24,404 bases of DNA from a virus, in the IMG/VR virus record IMGVR_UViG_3300045240_000123, positions 1-24,404 of that record; one strand, written 5' to 3'. The position numbers were made by a program, and so were the translations under genes. Each line of letters starts with the position of its first letter. The stretch's first letter is position 1. Positions 2,801 through 23,458 of the stretch are shown piece after piece. The notes beneath the pieces are model-generated. The model did not search any database. It saw only the letters and a list, made by a program, of their open reading frames with translations, and was not told the origin of the DNA.

Positions 2801-3730
2801 TTAGCTCCAGTTGCCAAACCCAGATGGCGCGGCGTTGGCATAGGCAGACTGGCCAAAATTCGCCGTGAAATTATCGCCGACATTACCCGCAGGTGATCCC
2901 CCGAACCCGATGAACGGAGCAAACGACCCCGATGCAGCAATTGTTACCCCGCCGACGCCGGTCGCTGGATCGTCCGTGGGCTGATTATTCCAGGGCGTAG
3001 TCGGCGTCCCGCCAGTGCGGAACCAGCCTTTTCTAGCCGTGAGGTCGACGGCTACCTGAATGATCATCCCCGGTGCAAACGCCGCACCCAGAGCACGGCC
3101 GGAATTAGAGTTATTCGACCAGATCATTCCGCTTGAGCTGCTGTAACAAGTGGTGCAGCTCTGGCCCGACATGACGTTGGCGTAGGTGCCGGTTGAAAGA
3201 ATAATGCCAACATCGTCGAAAGCCCCATTGCTTGCTCCGATGGTGACCTCGAAATAATATTTGCCTGCACTCTTGATCGTAGTGCTGCGCGTCCCGGAAT
3301 TGGTAACCGCTGCATTGTGCGTTGCTTTGAGATTTCCGTTCGACATCGTCACATTAGCCGTGGCGCCATCAAGCGTGGCAAGAACAGTGCCGGCGATCAC
3401 CGTGGAATCCTGCGTAGATGCCGCAGTCACCGTCTCGACCACGGTCCCCACAATAGGCACCAAAGCCGAAGACACGTCGGAGGCACTCGCCGCCTCCGTA
3501 ATCGTGGAGGCGTAGGCAAATCCGGCATTGACGACTTCGTCAGCACTCGCCGTCTCGAGCATGACCTGGCCGAGGAAGGCATCCAGGCTGTCATTGGCCG
3601 AAGCCGGATCATCGATCAGAGCAGCGAACAGGACGCCGCTGTTGGTCAAATCCGCGGCAACTGCCGTCTCCACAACCTCCGTCAGCAACACCACCCCTCT
3701 GGGGCTCTGGACTACGTGACAACTGAGCAT
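2801..3730 (-). CDS. tail appendage protein with Ala-rich repeats and SPRY-like C-terminal domain
   Basis: The 309-aa protein starts at an ATG directly abutting the TAA of the upstream gene. Residues about 17-115 hold about four degenerate repeats of roughly 22-28 residues with the core E-x-A-S-A-x-D (for example ETASADEVVNAG, EAASASDVSSA, ETVTAASTQDS), predicted to form a stalk. Residues about 118-309 look like a B30.2/SPRY-type beta sandwich: LDGATANVTMSNGNLKA, then GKYYFEVTIGA, a VGII strand, a GMIIQVAVDLTARKGWFRTGG segment and a final F.PFIGFG. SPRY-like domains occur in phage tail proteins and bind protein or glycan targets. A receptor-contacting appendage is inferred from the architecture and position. 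Confidence 0.7.
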   Translation of the reverse strand: MLSCHVVQSPRGVVLLTEVVETAVAADLTNSGVLFAALIDDPASANDSLDAFLGQVMLETASADEVVNAGFAYASTITEAASASDVSSALVPIVGTVVETVTAASTQDSTVIAGTVLATLDGATANVTMSNGNLKATHNAAVTNSGTRSTTIKSAGKYYFEVTIGASNGAFDDVGIILSTGTYANVMSGQSCTTCYSSSSGMIWSNNSNSGRALGAAFAPGMIIQVAVDLTARKGWFRTGGTPTTPWNNQPTDDPATGVGGVTIAASGSFAPFIGFGGSPAGNVGDNFTANFGQSAYANAAPSGFGNWS

Positions 3731-15036: not shown

Positions 15037-15723
15037 TCAGGCTCTTCTGAATGCGAAGGTGCCGATGTCCTCGCGGCCGAGCTCGGTTTCAACATTGCTT
15101 TCCGACACCATGGTGAAACCGCAGGACTTCATCGCAAACAACAAGCCGTCGCGCGTAAAATGCCAACAATGTTCGGCTGGCTTGAAATGTTTCGAGCGCA
15201 GCACATGCTCGGCATCGCGAAAGATCGGCAGTGACAGGAACAACCATTCGCGGCAGTTGGCGAGCAGCAATCCAAAATCCTCCATGTGCTCGAGCACGTC
15301 CCACATCGTCATGGCTTGAAACGGCACGAGATACGGATCGATCAGCAGCATCCGCGTTTCGAGCCATTTCAATGCGGCCGGATTGATGTCGTAACCCCAG
15401 GTCTTTTCCTGCCGCGCTTGCCGGCATTCGATGAACGCGCCCGAGCCGATGCCGACATCGATTAACGGTCCTCGGTAGTGCTGCTCGACGAAGTCGCAGC
15501 GCGCCGACATCAAAGCGCGGCCGATCGGCGTCCTCGCGTTGCGATCGAACTGGTCGAAATACGCCTGATCGTAGGGCGCGCTTCCCGCCTCGACCGGATA
15601 CCAGCCGATACCGATCTGCGGCCACCATGTCAGCCGGCGGCGCGAAAACTGCTCGACCAGCGGCGGAACTGTCCGATCGGGTCTGCAATCCTCTTCTCGC
15701 AGTCGTGCAACATGTTCGTGCAT
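15037..15723 (-). CDS. class I SAM-dependent methyltransferase
   Basis: The 228-aa protein has the class I methyltransferase signature: motif I PLIDVGIGSGAF (86-97), the acidic end of strand 2 in YDINP (111-115), motif IV MTMWDVLEHMED (139-149) and a strand LFLSLPIF (161-168). It then has H-C-W-H-F-T-R (185-191) and a CGFTMV C-terminal strand, as in Methyltransf_23-type enzymes that act on small molecules or sugars. The ATG at 15723 has GGAGG ten bases upstream and overlaps the end of the glycosyltransferase gene by about 94 bases. The acceptor is unknown; with its two upstream neighbours it may modify a sugar on the virion or the host envelope. No DNA methyltransferase motif (DPPY or PC) is seen. 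Confidence 0.85.
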   Translation of the reverse strand: MHEHVARLREEDCRPDRTVPPLVEQFSRRRLTWWPQIGIGWYPVEAGSAPYDQAYFDQFDRNARTPIGRALMSARCDFVEQHYRGPLIDVGIGSGAFIECRQARQEKTWGYDINPAALKWLETRMLLIDPYLVPFQAMTMWDVLEHMEDFGLLLANCREWLFLSLPIFRDAEHVLRSKHFKPAEHCWHFTRDGLLFAMKSCGFTMVSESNVETELGREDIGTFAFRRA

Positions 15724-16520
15724 CGGCAGAAGGCCTCCGGCATTGCAAAGCCGATCCGGCTCAAGTCGAGCCGCGGATCGGTGACTTTCTCGGGCGCGTT
15801 GTGACCGCCGTGGCCGCCCAGCACCACGAAGGTCTTCGATCTGAGCGCAATCCCCGCCGGCACGATCCAGCCCACGCCGCCGATCACCACGTCGGCTTCG
15901 CGCACCAGCGCGAGCAACTGGCGCACGTTCAACTCGCCCAACACGAAGTAATGGTGCGCCGGCGGCAGCTCGCCGACCGCCCATTCGTGGCCCGCCGCAA
16001 GATCGGCGACCGCGACCGTTGTGTGCGTCGTCATCAGCTCGGCCGCCAGTGCGGCCACATATTCCGGTCGCGGGTTGCGCGCCTCGTTGCGCCATTCGGC
16101 GCGCACCGTCACCGGCCGCACCACCGCGATCGGCCGTTCGGACCTGATTGGCGACGGTCCCATGTCGGGCAGATCGAACAGCGCCGGATCGAAGGCGACC
16201 CGCAGCGCCGACCACTTGCGCTCGAGCGCATGGACGATCGAGGCCGTCCTCAAATTGCCGCCGTAGGAAACCTTGACCTCGCGCATCGGCAACGGCCGCG
16301 ACCATCGCTCTGCGCATTGCCGCGCCATGTTCTTGAGCTGCGTTCGCAACCGGCGCTTCGCGAGAACGAACCTCAGGTCGAGATCCTCGTAAAGTTCCGG
16401 CCACGGCGTTTCGAGCCAGACCTCGTATTGCTCCGCCGCGGCGCGCACGAACGGCCGCGAATAAATGTTGTCGCCGAGCCCCCACATCCCGCGGACCAGG
16501 ACTGCTTCCGCAGGCCTCAA
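15630..16520 (-). CDS. GT9-like glycosyltransferase (heptosyltransferase-type fold)
   Basis: The 296-aa protein starts at TTG 16520, overlapping the previous stop (TTGA). The TTG is preferred because the next ATG (16487) would remove the first beta strand, VLVRG. N-terminal GMWGLGDNIYSRPF (11-24) matches the glycine-rich loop of GT9 ADP-heptose transferases. The C-terminal half has VRAEWRNEARNPRPEY (139-154), LGELNVRQLLALVREADVVI (194-213), GGVGWIVPAGIALRSKTFVVL (214-234) and GGHGGHNAPEKV (236-246), the nucleotide-sugar-binding half of a GT-B fold. It likely transfers a sugar to a host or phage glycan in the cytoplasm. It is the middle gene of a three-gene cassette. The fold is fairly sure; donor and acceptor are unknown. 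Confidence 0.72.
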   Translation of the reverse strand: MRPAEAVLVRGMWGLGDNIYSRPFVRAAAEQYEVWLETPWPELYEDLDLRFVLAKRRLRTQLKNMARQCAERWSRPLPMREVKVSYGGNLRTASIVHALERKWSALRVAFDPALFDLPDMGPSPIRSERPIAVVRPVTVRAEWRNEARNPRPEYVAALAAELMTTHTTVAVADLAAGHEWAVGELPPAHHYFVLGELNVRQLLALVREADVVIGGVGWIVPAGIALRSKTFVVLGGHGGHNAPEKVTDPRLDLSRIGFAMPEAFCRCTNMLHDCEKRIADPIGQFRRWSSSFRAAG

Positions 16521-17185
16521 GCCGCCCGCCGCCGGTCGAGCGTCTCCTCAAGGCCGACCACCGGCCACAGATCCGCATAGGCGCTGCCCGAGCTGGCGTT
16601 GAGCAGCGCAATGCCCATCGACCGCAGCGGCGCCGCCATGGTGGCGATGTCGCCGCGCTGCCGATCGTATCGATCCGGCCTCGGGCCCCACCGGTGCGGC
16701 TTGTGGTGCCAGAGCCGGCCGTCCGCAGCCGCCTTGCCGTCGACGCCGAGCCAGACGATCGTTCCGCCGCGTCCCACCAGATGCGCCGCCAGGTTGGTCG
16801 CCCCGGTGAGCGAGGTCCATTTCTGCGTCAGGCAATCGGGCGCCTGCGCCAATCCCGGTGGATTAATCTTGCGGCAGAGCAGCACCTTGGCATCCCGCAC
16901 CATCTGCGAGGTGGTGACGACACGTCCCGTGAAGCTCCCGACCGCCGCCCGATTTTCCGGCTCGTTCCACCAGCGCCAATCGCCGAAGTAGAGAAAATCG
17001 GCCCACGGCGCCGCATGGACGCTCGAATTGATGACGATCACATGCCGGCCGCGCAACTGCCCGAGGTCGTGCTCGAGCACTGACGGCCCGCCGGCGACGA
17101 TGAACGCCGTCCCGCCCTCCCATTCGCGCGGCACCTCGTAATGTTTCACGTGAAACCCATTACAAATGCAACCGCGTATATTCAC
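16517..17185 (-). CDS. MptE/DUF115-like protein, likely sugar-related
   Basis: The 222-aa protein has AFIVAGGPSVLEHDL (27-41), the phosphate-binding G-G-P-S type loop of the MptE/DUF115 superfamily. It then has HVIVINSSVHAAPWADFLYFG (48-68), LTGATNLAAHL (126-136), IVWLGVDGKAAADGR (143-157), HHKPHRW (160-166) and LLNASSGSAYADLWPVV (194-210). The 'L-x-G-V-D-G-K...H-x-K-P-H' and 'N-A-S-x-G-S-A-Y' motifs recall phage and flagellin-modification (MAF) relatives. The start chosen is GTG 17185, overlapping the connector stop; GTG at 17149 (V13) is also possible. It probably handles a nucleotide-activated sugar or a related transfer. The first 15 codons contain a parS-like palindrome. Confidence 0.7.
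   Translation of the reverse strand: MNIRGCICNGFHVKHYEVPREWEGGTAFIVAGGPSVLEHDLGQLRGRHVIVINSSVHAAPWADFLYFGDWRWWNEPENRAAVGSFTGRVVTTSQMVRDAKVLLCRKINPPGLAQAPDCLTQKWTSLTGATNLAAHLVGRGGTIVWLGVDGKAAADGRLWHHKPHRWGPRPDRYDRQRGDIATMAAPLRSMGIALLNASSGSAYADLWPVVGLEETLDRRRAA
17142..17157. promoter_or_regulatory. parS: parS-like ParB-binding site
   Basis: TGTTTCACGTGAAACC contains the perfect 14-base palindrome GTTTCACGTGAAAC and matches 15 of 16 positions of the chromosomal parS consensus TGTTTCACGTGAAACA, conserved from Bacillus to Caulobacter. It lies inside codons 10-15 of the MptE-like gene (reading G-F-H-V-K-H). No second copy and no parA or parB gene was seen in the window. Chance expectation for a match this good in 24 kb is roughly 3 in 10,000. 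Confidence 0.75.
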
Positions 17186-17829
17186 ACATAGAAGCGCGTG
17201 TATGCGCTGAGCAAGCCAGCCGCGGTATCGGCCGCCGCCTGCAATGGGGCGGTGGGCGCGGCCTTGCCGAGCACCTGCAGCGGATCGTAATACTGCACGA
17301 TGGTATCGCCATGCCGGACCATTCGGACGCCGCCGGTGGCGTTCAAGCGCTGCTGCAATCGCGCCGCCTGGATCAATAGTGTGGCCGCTGCCTTGAGCGC
17401 CGGCGGTGCGGCATCGGGCAACTGGTATCCGCCGCTGTAGGTCACGGTGACCGGCTCGGTCCAGGCGCCTTCGATGCGCATCTTGCCGGATAGGTTCTCG
17501 ATCTCGTAACTCGCCGGGTCGAGGATGTTGCCGCGCGGCGATTCCACCGACACGATGTCGGCGTCGGCGACCGGATAGTGCGTCAGGAACAGGCGCGGAC
17601 TGTCGAACGGCATCGAGTCGCCGCGCCAGGTCTCGGCGACCTGTTCATAGGCGAACACGCGCTGGCACATCGTCGCGATGACATCGCTGTACTGGTCGAT
17701 CCACATCTGCAACTGCGTGTCTTCGCTCGTATTGCTGGGCGGCAGGCCAAGGATGCTTTTGATCTCGTCCAACGTGACGAGCGCATAGCTGTCGGCCGGC
17801 GCCAGCACCTTGACCCAAACGTCGGCCAT
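17182..17829 (-). CDS. head-tail connector protein (gp6-like family)
   Basis: The ATG at 17829 shares one base with the TGA of the collagen-like gene, with a GAGGGG sequence just upstream, giving 215 aa. The N-terminal helical part LVTLDEIKSILGLPPSNTSED followed by TQLQMWIDQYSDVIATMCQRVF is the pattern of the phage gp6-like head-tail connector family (phiE125 gp8 / HK97 gp6 type), which docks below the portal as a dodecameric ring. Next come ETWRGD, RLFLTHYPVADADIVSVES, a beta region (YEIENLSGKMRI, VTVTYSGGYQLP) and a closing helix (PALKAAATLLIQAARLQQRL). Position after the portal fits. The stop overlaps the next gene's GTG. Confidence 0.82.
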   Translation of the reverse strand: MADVWVKVLAPADSYALVTLDEIKSILGLPPSNTSEDTQLQMWIDQYSDVIATMCQRVFAYEQVAETWRGDSMPFDSPRLFLTHYPVADADIVSVESPRGNILDPASYEIENLSGKMRIEGAWTEPVTVTYSGGYQLPDAAPPALKAAATLLIQAARLQQRLNATGGVRMVRHGDTIVQYYDPLQVLGKAAPTAPLQAAADTAAGLLSAYTRFYV

Positions 17830-18812
17830 CACCGCCCCTCGTGAAACTGCTCGAACAGCGCCCGCAACTCCAGCAGCGGCGCCTCGCTGTTGTCTGACAT
17901 GACCGGCTGCGCGGTGTAGGCTTCGCGGTCGATGCGCCAGCCGACGATGGTCGGCCCGGGATCTCCGGTGGGACCACGCTCGCCACGCACGCCAGGAGCC
18001 CCGTGGTCGCCCTTCATCCCGGGCTTGCCCGGCTTGCCGGCCGAGGCGATAAGCTGCCAGCCGTCGCCCGGGCACGGTCCCGGGCCATCCTGGCGGGCAA
18101 TGAAGCTCGACCCGCCGAGCGCCACGATATCGAGCGCCGCATAGGCCTCGCCGTCGCGCCAGGTGCCGCGCACGACGGGGGTTGCCGCGTCCCGGCCGGC
18201 CGCCGCGAGGCAGGCCCAATCCTCGTGCGGCGGCGCTCTGGCGGTATCCTGGCGCGCCTGCCATGTCGAGCCGCCGGCCAATATGATCTGCCCGCGGTAA
18301 TGCACCTCGCCTTCACGGTACGGCAATGCCGCCTCGATCGTGCCCGCCGCGCCGTCCCTCCCAGCGGGGCCCGGGATGCCGTCTTTGCCTGCGGGCCCCT
18401 GTTCGCCGGCCCTGCCGGCCTCACCGGCAGGCCCTGCGGCGCCGGATGGCCCTTGGTCGCCCTTTTCGCCGCACGCACCAGCGGGTCCCGCAGGCCCCAT
18501 GGTGCCGGTTTCCCCACGCTCGCCGACGATGCCCTTTTCGCCCTGCGGGCCGGCCTCGCCACGTTCGCCGGCCGGCCCTGGCGCGCCGTCGGCGCCGTTG
18601 GTGAGCTTGGCGGCGATAGCCTCGACGTATTGCGTCAGCCGCGACCGCAGTTCAGTCGCCTCGGCCTGCAATTGCAGGATCGTCGCCCTGGTCTGCGCCT
18701 CGGTCAGTTCGCGGTGGCGCTCCCATTGCGTGCGCTCGGTGTAGAGCGCCTCGGCGAGCGCCTCGCGCCACGCGTCAAGAAGCAGCGCGTCGTCGTCCGA
18801 TCCGGTCGGCAT
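17829..18812 (-). CDS. collagen-like virion protein with two carbohydrate-binding-like modules
   Basis: From ATG 18812 the product is 327 aa; ATG 18848, with AAGAG nine bases before it, is an alternative. Both overlap the portal gene end. Residues about 10-70 form a coiled-coil helix (LDAWREALAEALYTERTQW and following), a likely trimeriser. G73-G157 is an unbroken Gly-X-Y collagen-like tract (GAPGPAGERGEAGPQGEKG and so on). Two similar modules follow: 164-207 (YREGEVHYRGQIILAGGSTW) and 216-258 (GTWRDGEAYAALDIVALGG), each with the V-x-x-G-x-x-W/F-x-A-R-x-D...P-x-x-x-W pattern of CBM5/12 chitin-binding-like domains. A second Gly-X-Y tract (262-287) and a C-terminal helix end the protein. It may decorate the head or neck. 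Such tracts are also repeat-prone. Confidence 0.8.
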   Translation of the reverse strand: MPTGSDDDALLLDAWREALAEALYTERTQWERHRELTEAQTRATILQLQAEATELRSRLTQYVEAIAAKLTNGADGAPGPAGERGEAGPQGEKGIVGERGETGTMGPAGPAGACGEKGDQGPSGAAGPAGEAGRAGEQGPAGKDGIPGPAGRDGAAGTIEAALPYREGEVHYRGQIILAGGSTWQARQDTARAPPHEDWACLAAAGRDAATPVVRGTWRDGEAYAALDIVALGGSSFIARQDGPGPCPGDGWQLIASAGKPGKPGMKGDHGAPGVRGERGPTGDPGPTIVGWRIDREAYTAQPVMSDNSEAPLLELRALFEQFHEGR

Positions 18813-20181
18813 TGGCAAACAGGTTTCTGACCTCTCGTGCAATGTCATCGCGGTTGCTCTTTTGCGGAGGCTTTGCGGGAGCCGGCGGCGCTGCGGGAGG
18901 AGGCGGCGCCGCCGGCGCAGCTTGGATCTTCCCGACTTGGCTGAGCGGGACGACCTGCTGCTGGACGCGCGGCTCGTCGCCGAATTCGACGCTGTCGAGC
19001 CCTTCGCTATTGCGCGCTTCGTTCGGCGCGAAGATGCCGCCCTGCACGCCGCGGGCCAGGCTCTCGATGCGATCTTTCTGCGCCGAGCGCAAAAGCTCGC
19101 CGGTATCAAACTCGACGTATTCGTCCGGCACGCCCTTGAGCTGGAACAGGTTTCCGATCGCTTCCTCGATATGATTGAGCGCGAAGCCGAGACCGGACGA
19201 GCGCCAGCTCTGCATCAGCGCCTCGGTCGACGAGAATGTCGAGCCGCCGAGACCGAGGATCTGCAACGGAATGCGGTAAGCGAGCGCGATGTTCTCGTTC
19301 GACAGCTTCAATATCTCGGCGGTCGCCGCCTCCTTGCCAGCCGATGTCCATGGCTGGACCTTGAGGCCTGAAGTGAGAATCGGCGTGCCGCCCTGGTGGA
19401 GGCCCTTGGCCTGCTCGTTCCAGCGATCGCGCAGCGCCTGGAGTTGATCCTTGTCGAGCGTGAGGTCGGTGGTGAGCACCGCGCTCGGACGGGCTTCGTT
19501 CATATAGTAGGAATATTGCTGGCGCGTAATCGCGGAAGTCACGCCGATGTCGCTGTATGCGGCGACGATCGGCGATTCGCCAACAAGCGGAACCGGCATG
19601 CGGTGGCGCACCGTATGCAGCTTGATGTGCAGGACATCGCGCTGCGGCACGAGCAGCGCATCGGCGCCGAGGCGCCGCTGAATGATATCGTTGCCGTAGA
19701 GCTGATAGAAAATCTCCCCATTGCTCGCCAGTCGCGGATGGGACGTCATCGAATCCATCAAATGCAGCTCGTCGATCTCGTAGCGATCGTTGCGAAGCCC
19801 GAGCGCAAAGGTGTTGCCGTACAGATAAAGCGACCGTGCCGCATTCAGCATAAAGTCGCTGATCGATTGATAATCGTTTGGATAGCGCAGCAGGCGGGCG
19901 AGCGCCGAATTGCTGACGCGATCGCGCCCGCCCTTGTCGTTCAATCGCCAATGATCGCCGGGCAGCATGGCGATGGTTTGGGCATACGCGGAAATACACG
20001 CCTCTACCATCGCCGAGCGAGGCGCCGAGACCGGATCGTAGCCTTGCTGCCACCAATTCCAGCCGGCGCCATCCGGCAGCCAGCCACCGGTCACCGGCAG
20101 GTAGTATGGGCCAGGGCGAAAGTCGCCCTCGCCCTTGCGCACCAGCTTCGCGATGCGTGACAACCACCCGGTCGCGCTCAT
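18775..20181 (-). CDS. portal protein (HK97 family)
   Basis: The 468-aa protein begins directly after the TGA of the small charged gene. Family features are the N-terminal ATG region with GWNWWQQGYDPVSAPRSAMVEACISAYAQTIAMLPG, then RDRVSNSALARLLRYPNDYQSISDFMLNAARSLYLYGNTFA, DVLHIKLHTVRH, and the central RDRWNEQAKGLHQGGTPILTSGLK. This is followed by SNENIALAYRIPLQILGLGG, the conserved C-terminal wing of phage portal family 1 (HK97 gp3 type), and FAPNEARNSEGLD near the end. The last 80 residues are Pro/Ala-rich. The portal forms the dodecameric vertex through which DNA is packaged. It lies after the capsid gene rather than before it, which is unusual. Confidence 0.92.
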   Translation of the reverse strand: MSATGWLSRIAKLVRKGEGDFRPGPYYLPVTGGWLPDGAGWNWWQQGYDPVSAPRSAMVEACISAYAQTIAMLPGDHWRLNDKGGRDRVSNSALARLLRYPNDYQSISDFMLNAARSLYLYGNTFALGLRNDRYEIDELHLMDSMTSHPRLASNGEIFYQLYGNDIIQRRLGADALLVPQRDVLHIKLHTVRHRMPVPLVGESPIVAAYSDIGVTSAITRQQYSYYMNEARPSAVLTTDLTLDKDQLQALRDRWNEQAKGLHQGGTPILTSGLKVQPWTSAGKEAATAEILKLSNENIALAYRIPLQILGLGGSTFSSTEALMQSWRSSGLGFALNHIEEAIGNLFQLKGVPDEYVEFDTGELLRSAQKDRIESLARGVQGGIFAPNEARNSEGLDSVEFGDEPRVQQQVVPLSQVGKIQAAPAAPPPPAAPPAPAKPPQKSNRDDIAREVRNLFANADRIGRRRAAS

Positions 20182-20523: not shown

Positions 20524-22656
20524 CTACCAGGTGACGCCCGCCGCCCACGCCACGACGCCCGTGCGTCGCACCGTCCAGTTTATTGGCAATAAAAGCCGCA
20601 GCGCGTAGGAGTTCGTCTGAAACATCGACTTGGCCGGCGCGCCAACAACATTTGGCGACCCAGTCGTGCCGATATCTCCCGGCGCCGTGTCATCGAAAAC
20701 AAGCGTGGCCTGGTCGCTGATTTCGAACCGCGGAGCCTCGCCACCGACCGAGACGAAGTCTGCGGCGTCGATCACGATCACCGTGCCGACCGGCACCGAA
20801 CCGGAGTCGATCACCGGCCATCCGCTCAATCGCTTTTGGCTGATCTCGTCGCGGAACGGGAAAACGCCCGCGCCTGGCGCCGCGGTCAGGCCGATGCTGT
20901 TGACCTGTTGCGGGTTCATGAGCCATGCCGGTTTGCGGACATTGCCCTTGGTTCCCGTCAACAGCGCGCCGGTCAACTGCTTGATGTCGCCGGTCAACGC
21001 CGTAAAGCCGCCGCCGGCCGTTGGCGTCAGTCCGCTGACGGAGTTCAAAATTCCGGCAGGCCGCACCGTCGTCGCCGGATTGGCATCGATCAGGACGCTG
21101 TCGAGCGCAATCGACGTATCCATCTGCACCGCATCGCGCAGCAGGCCCTCGATTGCTGGCTGGCTGTGATCCTCAAGCTCCTGGCTGAAGGTCGTGATGA
21201 CGGCCATCTTTTTCGGCGTCAGCGTCTGCGACGTGAACAAACCTTGACGAACCGGGATGGGAAGTCCTTCACCGACGAACGATCCGGCGATCGTCGGCGT
21301 GTTGGCCCGCGTCGGGATGACGATCTTGCCGTAGGGACCGAAGCTTAGCGACAAGCCCAGCGCCGACAATCGTGGAAAGATCGACGACGGATAGAGCGCG
21401 TCCATAAACGCCGTATAGGTCGTCTGCGCGAGTTCCGCCGCCCATCCGGTCAGGGTAGTCGTCGCCGGCACGGTCGAGGCGCGCATATGCCAGGCGAGCG
21501 CCGCCCTATGCAGTTCGTCGTCGCCGTAGATTTCGCGCATGACGACGTCGAGCGGCTTGTGCTGCCGGTGCGCAAACAATTGCACGACGCCCATTCGCAC
21601 GAGCAGATCGAGCGGGTCGATCTTTTTCGCCGGCGCAAGGCTGAAGGGCCGCGGCGTGGCCTTGTCTCTCTGCGGCACGGGAACGGCGGGCGCCTGATGT
21701 AGAGCCAGCGACCTCCCGGGCGAATGGCCACCATCGGATTCGGCACCGAGATTGCGCTCGGATTCCCGCAACGAAGCGAGCGCGCGCTCCTCCTGCCTGA
21801 TCTTCTGGTTGATATCGTCGGAAACCCCGAGCTGCGTGTCGCTGACATTGCTGTCGTCGAGTTTGTCGTAATGGTCCTGAAGCTGGTCGCGAAGCGCATT
21901 GAGGCGCTGCTCGCAAGCAGTTATCCGTTGAGCAAACGACGTCATTGTCGTGCCCTTTCCTGTTCGTGATCGCGTATCGGCTTGCCCGCCGGTGTTCCCG
22001 CGCCGTGCGATCCCGCGTCCTTTGCCTTTCCCGGCGAAAACGAGATCGATCGTCGTGGGCGAAATCTTGAGCGACTTGGCGATGGCCAGCGCATTCGGGT
22101 TTGCCGGCACCGAGACCAGGCTGGTCTCGACCAATTCAGCCTTGGTGAAGAACATGCCGTAATCGGATTCCGGCCGCGGCCTGGATTCCTTCGGGCGGAA
22201 ACCGACGCTGACGGCGCGCAGAATGCCAGCGTCGATCAGCTTGCGGATTTCGTCGATGCGGTCGCTGGTGCCGGCGGGCGCCAGCTCGAGGTGTCCGCGC
22301 AACTGCTTGTCGATGACGCGAACGCCCGTCCATTTGCCGATCGGCGCGTTGCTGTTGTGGTTGAACAGGGCAATCGGGTTTTTCTGGAACGACGCCAGAT
22401 CCCAGGCGCTCGCCATGATGACGTCGTCCATGCGGTCGGGCGTTTCGTCCGACAGCACGAACTCCAGGCCGTTGACCTGGCCGGCGTGGGTCTTGTAGCA
22501 GACGTCCTTTGCAGCGCCCTTGTCCTCGTCCCAGGCGTCCTCCCAGATCAACTGGCATACGTCCTGGTCGCCGAGCTCATCGCCGCAGCGGCTCATGAAA
22601 TCGATGTAGGACTCGTCGAGATCGGGATAGAGGTCTTGGCGCTGCAACTTTCGCAT
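20524..22656 (-). CDS. fused prohead protease and major capsid protein (HK97-like)
   Basis: The 710-aa product joins two usually separate proteins. Residues about 55-200 form an S78-type prohead protease: IALFNHNSNAPIGKW with H100, GILRAVSVGFRP with S150, and ELVETSLVSVPANPNA with E177, consistent with the His/Ser plus acidic catalytic set. Residues 205-237 are a Gly/Arg/Lys linker. Residues about 238-303 are a coiled coil like the scaffolding delta domain, followed by a Pro-rich stretch (310-345). The HK97-fold capsid runs from about 346, with the hallmark TTLTGWAAELAQTTY, PTRANTPTIAGSFVGEG, PKKMAVITTFSQELEDHSQP and PAWLMNPQQVNSIGL. The protease trims the delta region during maturation. The main ATG has AAGGA upstream. 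Confidence 0.9.
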   Translation of the reverse strand: MRKLQRQDLYPDLDESYIDFMSRCGDELGDQDVCQLIWEDAWDEDKGAAKDVCYKTHAGQVNGLEFVLSDETPDRMDDVIMASAWDLASFQKNPIALFNHNSNAPIGKWTGVRVIDKQLRGHLELAPAGTSDRIDEIRKLIDAGILRAVSVGFRPKESRPRPESDYGMFFTKAELVETSLVSVPANPNALAIAKSLKISPTTIDLVFAGKGKGRGIARRGNTGGQADTRSRTGKGTTMTSFAQRITACEQRLNALRDQLQDHYDKLDDSNVSDTQLGVSDDINQKIRQEERALASLRESERNLGAESDGGHSPGRSLALHQAPAVPVPQRDKATPRPFSLAPAKKIDPLDLLVRMGVVQLFAHRQHKPLDVVMREIYGDDELHRAALAWHMRASTVPATTTLTGWAAELAQTTYTAFMDALYPSSIFPRLSALGLSLSFGPYGKIVIPTRANTPTIAGSFVGEGLPIPVRQGLFTSQTLTPKKMAVITTFSQELEDHSQPAIEGLLRDAVQMDTSIALDSVLIDANPATTVRPAGILNSVSGLTPTAGGGFTALTGDIKQLTGALLTGTKGNVRKPAWLMNPQQVNSIGLTAAPGAGVFPFRDEISQKRLSGWPVIDSGSVPVGTVIVIDAADFVSVGGEAPRFEISDQATLVFDDTAPGDIGTTGSPNVVGAPAKSMFQTNSYALRLLLPINWTVRRTGVVAWAAGVTW
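21943..21961 (-). promoter_or_regulatory. internal ribosome binding site and start for capsid-only product
   Basis: Inside the protease-capsid gene, AGGAAAGGG (21961-21953) lies seven bases before an in-frame ATG at 21945-21943, codon 238. The product from here would be 473 aa: the delta-domain coiled coil plus capsid, without the protease. It is a better Shine-Dalgarno arrangement than most genes in the window have, and it falls exactly at the domain boundary. Confidence 0.6.
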
Positions 22657-22721
22657 GGCTATTCCTTCCCGCGGGGATGCAGGTTCGGCAGACTCGGTGG
22701 TTCGGTTAGGCGCGTTGCGGT

Positions 22722-23146: not shown

Positions 23147-23458
23147 TCAACTCCTGTTTGCCGGATGGTTTGGGTCTATCGGCCAGCCGTCGTCGCCGAC
23201 CTCGATGCTGTGGCCGCGGGTTTCGATGAAACGCTTTTGCCTGTCGTGACAGCTCGCGCACAGCGATTGCAGCTCGCCGAGCACGAACTTGTTCCAGTCG
23301 CCGCGGTGGGGCTTGACGTGATCGACCACGGTTGCCCGGGTAACCGCGCCGCGTTTCGCGCAGAATTTACAAAGCGGATGCTCGCGTAATTGAAGCTTCC
23401 GTCGGCGCAGCCAATAACGGCCGGTGTAGAAATGATGCCAGGACCCTGGATCACGCAC
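23147..23458 (-). CDS. HNH endonuclease
   Basis: The 103-aa protein has a classic phage HNH layout: a basic N-terminus (YTGRYWLRRRKLQLREHPLC), a zinc-binding C30-x-x-C33, VVDHVKPHRGDWNKF with the DH pair at 46-47, and a second C67-x-x-C70 followed by H71 in LQSLCASCHDRQKR. Such proteins are commonly encoded beside terminase genes and support DNA cleavage at packaging termini in HK97-like phages. Here it is inserted between two paralogous genes rather than beside the small terminase subunit. The start is GTG 23458, overlapping the upstream gene by eight bases. The C-terminal tail (DDGWPIDPNHP) is typical of this group. Confidence 0.9.
   Translation of the reverse strand: MRDPGSWHHFYTGRYWLRRRKLQLREHPLCKFCAKRGAVTRATVVDHVKPHRGDWNKFVLGELQSLCASCHDRQKRFIETRGHSIEVGDDGWPIDPNHPANRS

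Follow-up and report, generated by a model that had tools for sequence, protein, structure and literature searches.

We found that the fused prohead protease/capsid gene of a soil phage very likely uses a second start codon in its own reading frame, at codon 238, from which a capsid precursor lacking the protease would be translated. The start codon and its Shine-Dalgarno sequence (SD) are conserved among fused relatives, and relatives with split genes use the homologous codon, in support of the first-pass annotation, which had proposed such a product. Upstream of this start, inside the coding region, lies a conserved two-hairpin RNA element. The window, that is, the whole stretch analysed, is the virus record IMGVR_UViG_3300045240_000123 of IMG/VR (24,404 nucleotides). 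The features of the gene are as follows.

20524..22656, minus strand: fused prohead protease/capsid ORF, 710 aa, a single open frame in nearly all relatives
22663..22670, minus strand: SD of the full-length start, GGGAAGGA, scored against the Bradyrhizobium 16S tail (−9.8 kcal/mol); ATG at 22656
22066..22449, minus strand: Peptidase_S78 prohead protease domain, residues 70-197, Pfam match
21953..21961, minus strand: internal SD, AGGAAAGGG, 7-nt spacer to the ATG
21943..21945, minus strand: internal ATG, codon 238, A at 21945
20524..21945, minus strand: predicted capsid precursor from the internal start, 473 aa
21739..21942, minus strand: delta (scaffold-like) domain, predicted helices 239-265 and 273-306, AlphaFold model
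20746..21330, minus strand: HK97-type capsid domain, Pfam Phage_capsid, residues 443-637

The 710-codon frame (22656..20524) has no internal stop and holds an S78 protease and an HK97-type capsid protein in one ORF, as in the PHROG 617 fusions, whose profile matches residues 64-710 (E=2e-77); the NCBIfam model for protease/capsid fusions, NF045541, gave 41 bits against a cut-off of 525, in a match limited to residues 81-223. The protease residues H100 and S150 are invariant in 26 relatives. In the AlphaFold model (26 relatives) the N-terminal domain is folded, residues 209-238 are disordered and helices begin at 239; mean pLDDT was low overall (55), so this local pattern alone was used, and the structure neighbours, HK97 proheads and herpesvirus proteases, were all weak. 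The predicted disorder and the helix start at 239 would place the codon-238 ATG at the boundary between protease and delta domain. The fused frame is open far upstream in L049-L051 and L120 (1140 and 1682 codons), possibly by GC-rich chance or through a further fusion.

The first-pass annotation had described a protease/capsid fusion with an in-frame ATG at codon 238, an SD 7 nt before it and a position at the domain boundary, and all of this was confirmed. The GAAAGGG block before the ATG matches the alphaproteobacterial 16S tail CCTCCTTTCT, and AGAAAGG is fully complementary in Bradyrhizobium elkanii, because the 16S genes of this species contain GGATCACCTCCTTTCT. The internal SD scores −9.1 kcal/mol, the best among 12 other in-frame ATGs −7.8. 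Viewed in this single sequence, equal or better complementarity to the 16S tail occurs upstream of 6.4% of codon positions, and the match is mildly unusual. It is conservation, namely the invariant Met and an SD contrast seen in two clades, that lifts the site above chance.

Among the near relatives (78 IMG/VR loci fetched), the fusion frame is open in all 66 loci examined except L055. Met238 is the aligned residue in 47/47 non-redundant relatives, within a hypervariable linker whose flanks differ in sequence and length, and the main group has GAAAGGG, or a sequence close to it, before this codon. In this clade an SD energy of −8 kcal/mol or lower was found for 77% of internal starts vs 9% of other in-frame ATGs (means −8.1 and −4.7 kcal/mol), and the RNA around the internal start is less structured than synonymous permutations (mean z +1.7). 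About a dozen deep members of the near clade, L047, L048, L052, L054, L056, L058, L060, L063 and L065 among them, have the ATG and a weak SD; the internal SD, whose conservation the first-pass annotation had put forward as a check, is thus retained in most homologous fusions, not in all. In nine relatives (L014, L016, L019, L020, L024, L036, L041, L044 and L074) the internal ATG is followed directly by another delta-domain sequence (SLAQKIKERENLILEK...), as though modules had been swapped at the start codon.

A deeper scan of 80 further loci gave the same picture: nearly every fused locus, down to 27% identity, has a linker ATG at the protease/delta boundary, mostly with a good SD, often AGGAGG, and the distant fusions with an ATG at this place include PAJU2, JLK-2012, FSL SP-016 and RHph_X2_26. 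As a test set picked after the idea had formed, we fetched independently 77 loci of the PAJU2 clade (~27% identity), 70 of which are fused. The homologous site holds a start codon in 71/71 sequences (the 70 fused loci and PAJU2), 67 times ATG and four times GTG, the latter preceded by AGGAGG, AAAGGA, GGAG or AAGGAG, and the SD contrast recurs (75% of internal starts vs 9% of other in-frame ATGs); with many close relatives in the sets, these counts, like those for the near clade, overstate independence. A conserved in-frame start with its SD inside a longer gene, as in the lambda C/Nu3 type, is therefore present in the family.

The RNA element lies ~30-110 nt upstream of the internal start and ends ~17 nt before the SD and ~32 nt before the ATG.

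21973..22071, minus strand: two-hairpin RNA element, span of covariance model R1, conserved
22008..22048, minus strand: hairpin 1, long stem with a 3-nt bulge on the 3′ side, apical GCC[GGGAAA]GGC
22024-22035, minus strand: apical part of hairpin 1, codons 208-211
21978..21991, minus strand: hairpin 2, CGGC[GGGCAA]GCCG, codons 223-226

In a scan of 43 relatives, synonymous change was almost absent from two 12-nt blocks, codons 208-211 and 223-226 (observed/expected 0.005 and 0.004, respectively), which read GCC-RRGNNN-GGC and GGC-RRGNNN-GCC. In L047, L052 and L055 block 1 is GGC..GCC, a two-sided change. RNAalifold on the codon alignment gave −58.8 vs −20.7±3.8 for column shuffles; the named structure was paired in 77% of cells vs 34-42% when slid, with a covariation score of 0.268 that none of 500 shuffles reached (slid controls 0.06-0.12). 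When arms of hairpin 1 were exchanged among diverged sequences, the hairpin became weaker in 21 of 22 cases (Wilcoxon p=2e-6). The PAJU2-clade sequences were anchored on their codons, independently of pairing; here hairpin 1 is paired in 68/71 sequences and hairpin 2 has all four pairs in 66/69, with 47 two-sided changes vs 16.5±2.3 (maximum 25) in shuffled data. Stem positions thus change together across relatives, and the pair is strongly supported as a structure at the nucleic-acid level. The element is not more stable than synonymous permutations (mean z about 0); folding energy being unexceptional, the case for RNA rests on conservation and covariation. Rfam gave no match at gathering score in the window or 20 relatives, nor up to E=5 within 21880-22160.

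An overlapping gene was rejected as the source of the synonymous constraint, since the other frames have stops in some sequences and the constraint consists of two 12-nt blocks. A frameshift site in the linker was not favoured either: there is no conserved stop in the alternative plus-strand frames (28/44 and 12/44 with a stop).

Model R1, built from 18 close sequences, recovers relatives withheld from it at the corresponding position; a search of 266 Bradyrhizobium genomes gave 16 matches, 15 of them in homologues of the fused gene. A hairpin-pair detector, which demands G as the third loop letter, was positive in 99/102 fused relatives vs 7.9% of other windows in the same genes; pairs with identical first three loop letters were found in 88/102 vs 0.75%, counts that, like those of pairing and loop agreement, take no account of relatedness. 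After thinning of the set, both hairpins share their first two loop letters in 86% vs 25% when shuffled, and within one phage the letters are GG/GG, AA/AA, GA/GA, GC/GC or sometimes GT/GT. Each hairpin carries a hexaloop with a conserved third G, a claim that rests on detector-free alignments because the detector required that G; in the PAJU2 clade hexaloop positions 1-3 are G, C and G, each kept in >90%. L149, L156 and L168 are fused and have the start codon, and lack the hairpin pair, which is also absent from all eight deeply split relatives. L259/L260, in contrast, are split and retain the two hairpins, with a new stem, and a strict tie between hairpins and fusion was dropped for this reason. 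A weak R1 match at window 3538-3631 (plus strand, E=3e-4) is probably chance. In L187 the element has no following capsid match and the open frame is broken, which we read as a degraded prophage.

Could the linker motifs be protein-level autocleavage sites, with the hairpins as a by-product? This reading competes with the RNA part only and is compatible with the internal start. Similar peptides do occur twice in the linker and change together (A-G/K/E-x-G with T-G-G/K/E-x-A; A-A-S-G with P-G-A-S-G); S78 proteases have been compared with herpesvirus proteases, which cut between A and S, and herpesvirus proteases are among the weak structure neighbours. Against it, synonymous change is nearly nil in both blocks; L027, L030 and L032 keep the nucleotides of block 2 in a shifted reading frame that encodes a different peptide; and the stems covary through amino-acid changes (P..G, A..A, T..V). 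We therefore consider it unlikely: autocleavage may add a constraint on the linker, and it does not explain the synonymous constraint, the shifted-frame copy or the hairpins retained in L259/L260.

Split relatives also bear on the internal start. The Moraxella phages Mcat7 and Mcat9 encode protease and capsid in two genes with an ATGA overlap, and the capsid starts at the homologous Met; in L152, L153, L154, L157, L159 and L160 it likewise starts at the homologous codon. L199 has a stop two codons before the internal ATG and L259/L260 a TAA immediately before it, so that the capsid must start at that codon. Indeed, the homologous codon is the only possible capsid start in the split relatives, and the split capsids tested (L152, L259 and Mcat7) begin their match to PHROG 617 at about profile position 190-193.

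These observations weigh against the reading in which all capsid is made as a protease-delta-capsid chain that cleaves itself and codon 238 is an ordinary linker methionine. A 1:1 fusion is physically possible, the long fused gene of Gifsy-2 is comparable, and for PAJU2, whose protease is fused to its capsid protein, an autocatalytically cleaved 'capsid polyprotein' has been proposed (cited in PMC8306868). Such an ordinary methionine would have to be invariant within a hypervariable linker, behind a conserved SD with synonymous bias; moreover, the four exceptions to ATG are GTG, and split genes start at that very codon. We regard the polyprotein-only reading as improbable. That the protease stop was lost and the old capsid start lingers idle is scarcely credible, even though split relatives exist, the fused/split state changed at least two times on the capsid tree, and L199 and L259/L260 differ from the fusions by one stop codon near the start, because a relic should decay, whereas start codon and SD persist down to ~27% protein identity.

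With a nested capsid start in use, one mRNA would yield two in-frame products. Translation from 22656 would give protease, delta domain and capsid as one chain, and translation from codon 238 the delta domain and capsid without the protease. The two products would co-assemble, so that only part of the shell subunits would carry the protease inside, and the protease would then remove itself and the delta domains by cutting. That both products are made we infer from sequence. The SD energies of this gene are −9.8 kcal/mol for the full-length start and −9.1 for the internal one, and the internal SD is the stronger in 9/41 relatives, a comparison tilted toward the full-length start, for which the strongest candidate within a window was used. 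Neither ribosome site looks stronger than the other, and the idea of a minor full-length and a major capsid product, also advanced in the first-pass annotation, finds no support in the sequence.

The simplest reading is that the nested start is a new variant of the lambda C/Nu3 arrangement (Shaw and Murialdo 1980, cited in PMC8508860). Both would have a protease gene with an in-frame start that yields a protease-less assembly protein from the same message. In lambda, however, the nested product is the scaffold alone and capsid protein E has a separate gene, whereas here it would be the whole delta-capsid precursor; the proteases also belong to different families (S49 for lambda C, S78 here). 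PAJU2 and the other PHROG 617 fusions share the gene family, the fused order and the head-operon position, and PAJU2 also has an internal start with AGGAGG; in the open-access literature we found neither a conserved internal start nor an RNA element reported for these fusions. Gifsy-2 likewise has protease and capsid in one long ORF, a fused protease-scaffold-capsid gene, although its protease is annotated as ClpP-type; in the one sequence examined (L190 22471-24561) codon 221, close to the border of protease and scaffold, is an ATG with a GAGG-type SD. The RNA element, which we consider the more novel part, can be likened by description to the HK022 put RNA, a phage element of two stem-loops (PMC9378689). 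That RNA, however, has RNA polymerase as its target and is located downstream of early promoters, whereas the element described here is inside the coding region of a capsid gene.

The place of the element just upstream suggests control of the internal start or message processing, and its most likely role would be to control use of that start as a protein-binding site, a processing site or a site of ribosome pausing. The agreement of the two loops suggests a single ligand. More tentatively, the paired hexaloop hairpins could be cis-acting RNAs of a new class, located in capsid mRNAs and bound by one co-evolving ligand, perhaps the capsid or protease, that sets the amount of capsid made from the internal start; such control would parallel, among head genes, the autogenous control of coat proteins. 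The usual reading of protease-capsid fusions is that of 1:1 polyproteins. A nested start would explain how a phage could produce additional capsid while retaining both proteins in a single frame, and the annotated capsid starts and stoichiometry of a widespread fusion family would need revision. If the element controls the internal start, it offers a case in which control of tailed-phage head assembly at the RNA level can be tested, and its relatives occur in phages of Escherichia, Salmonella and Pseudomonas.

Several minor observations concern the surroundings of the gene. In two Bradyrhizobium genomes a second capsid-like stretch, ~30% identical, adjoins the fused gene (L182, 3083-2301; L183, 26-808). 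Upstream of the fused gene, the window has a small ORF resembling HNH endonucleases (23147-23458, minus strand), and a similar one is found near the RNA element in L187. Downstream of a portal-like gene, the ORF at 17829-19109 (minus strand) contains collagen-like GPAGPAGE repeats, and between head and tail genes (15037-17185, minus strand) are ORFs that look, on inspection, like glycosyltransferase and methyltransferase genes.
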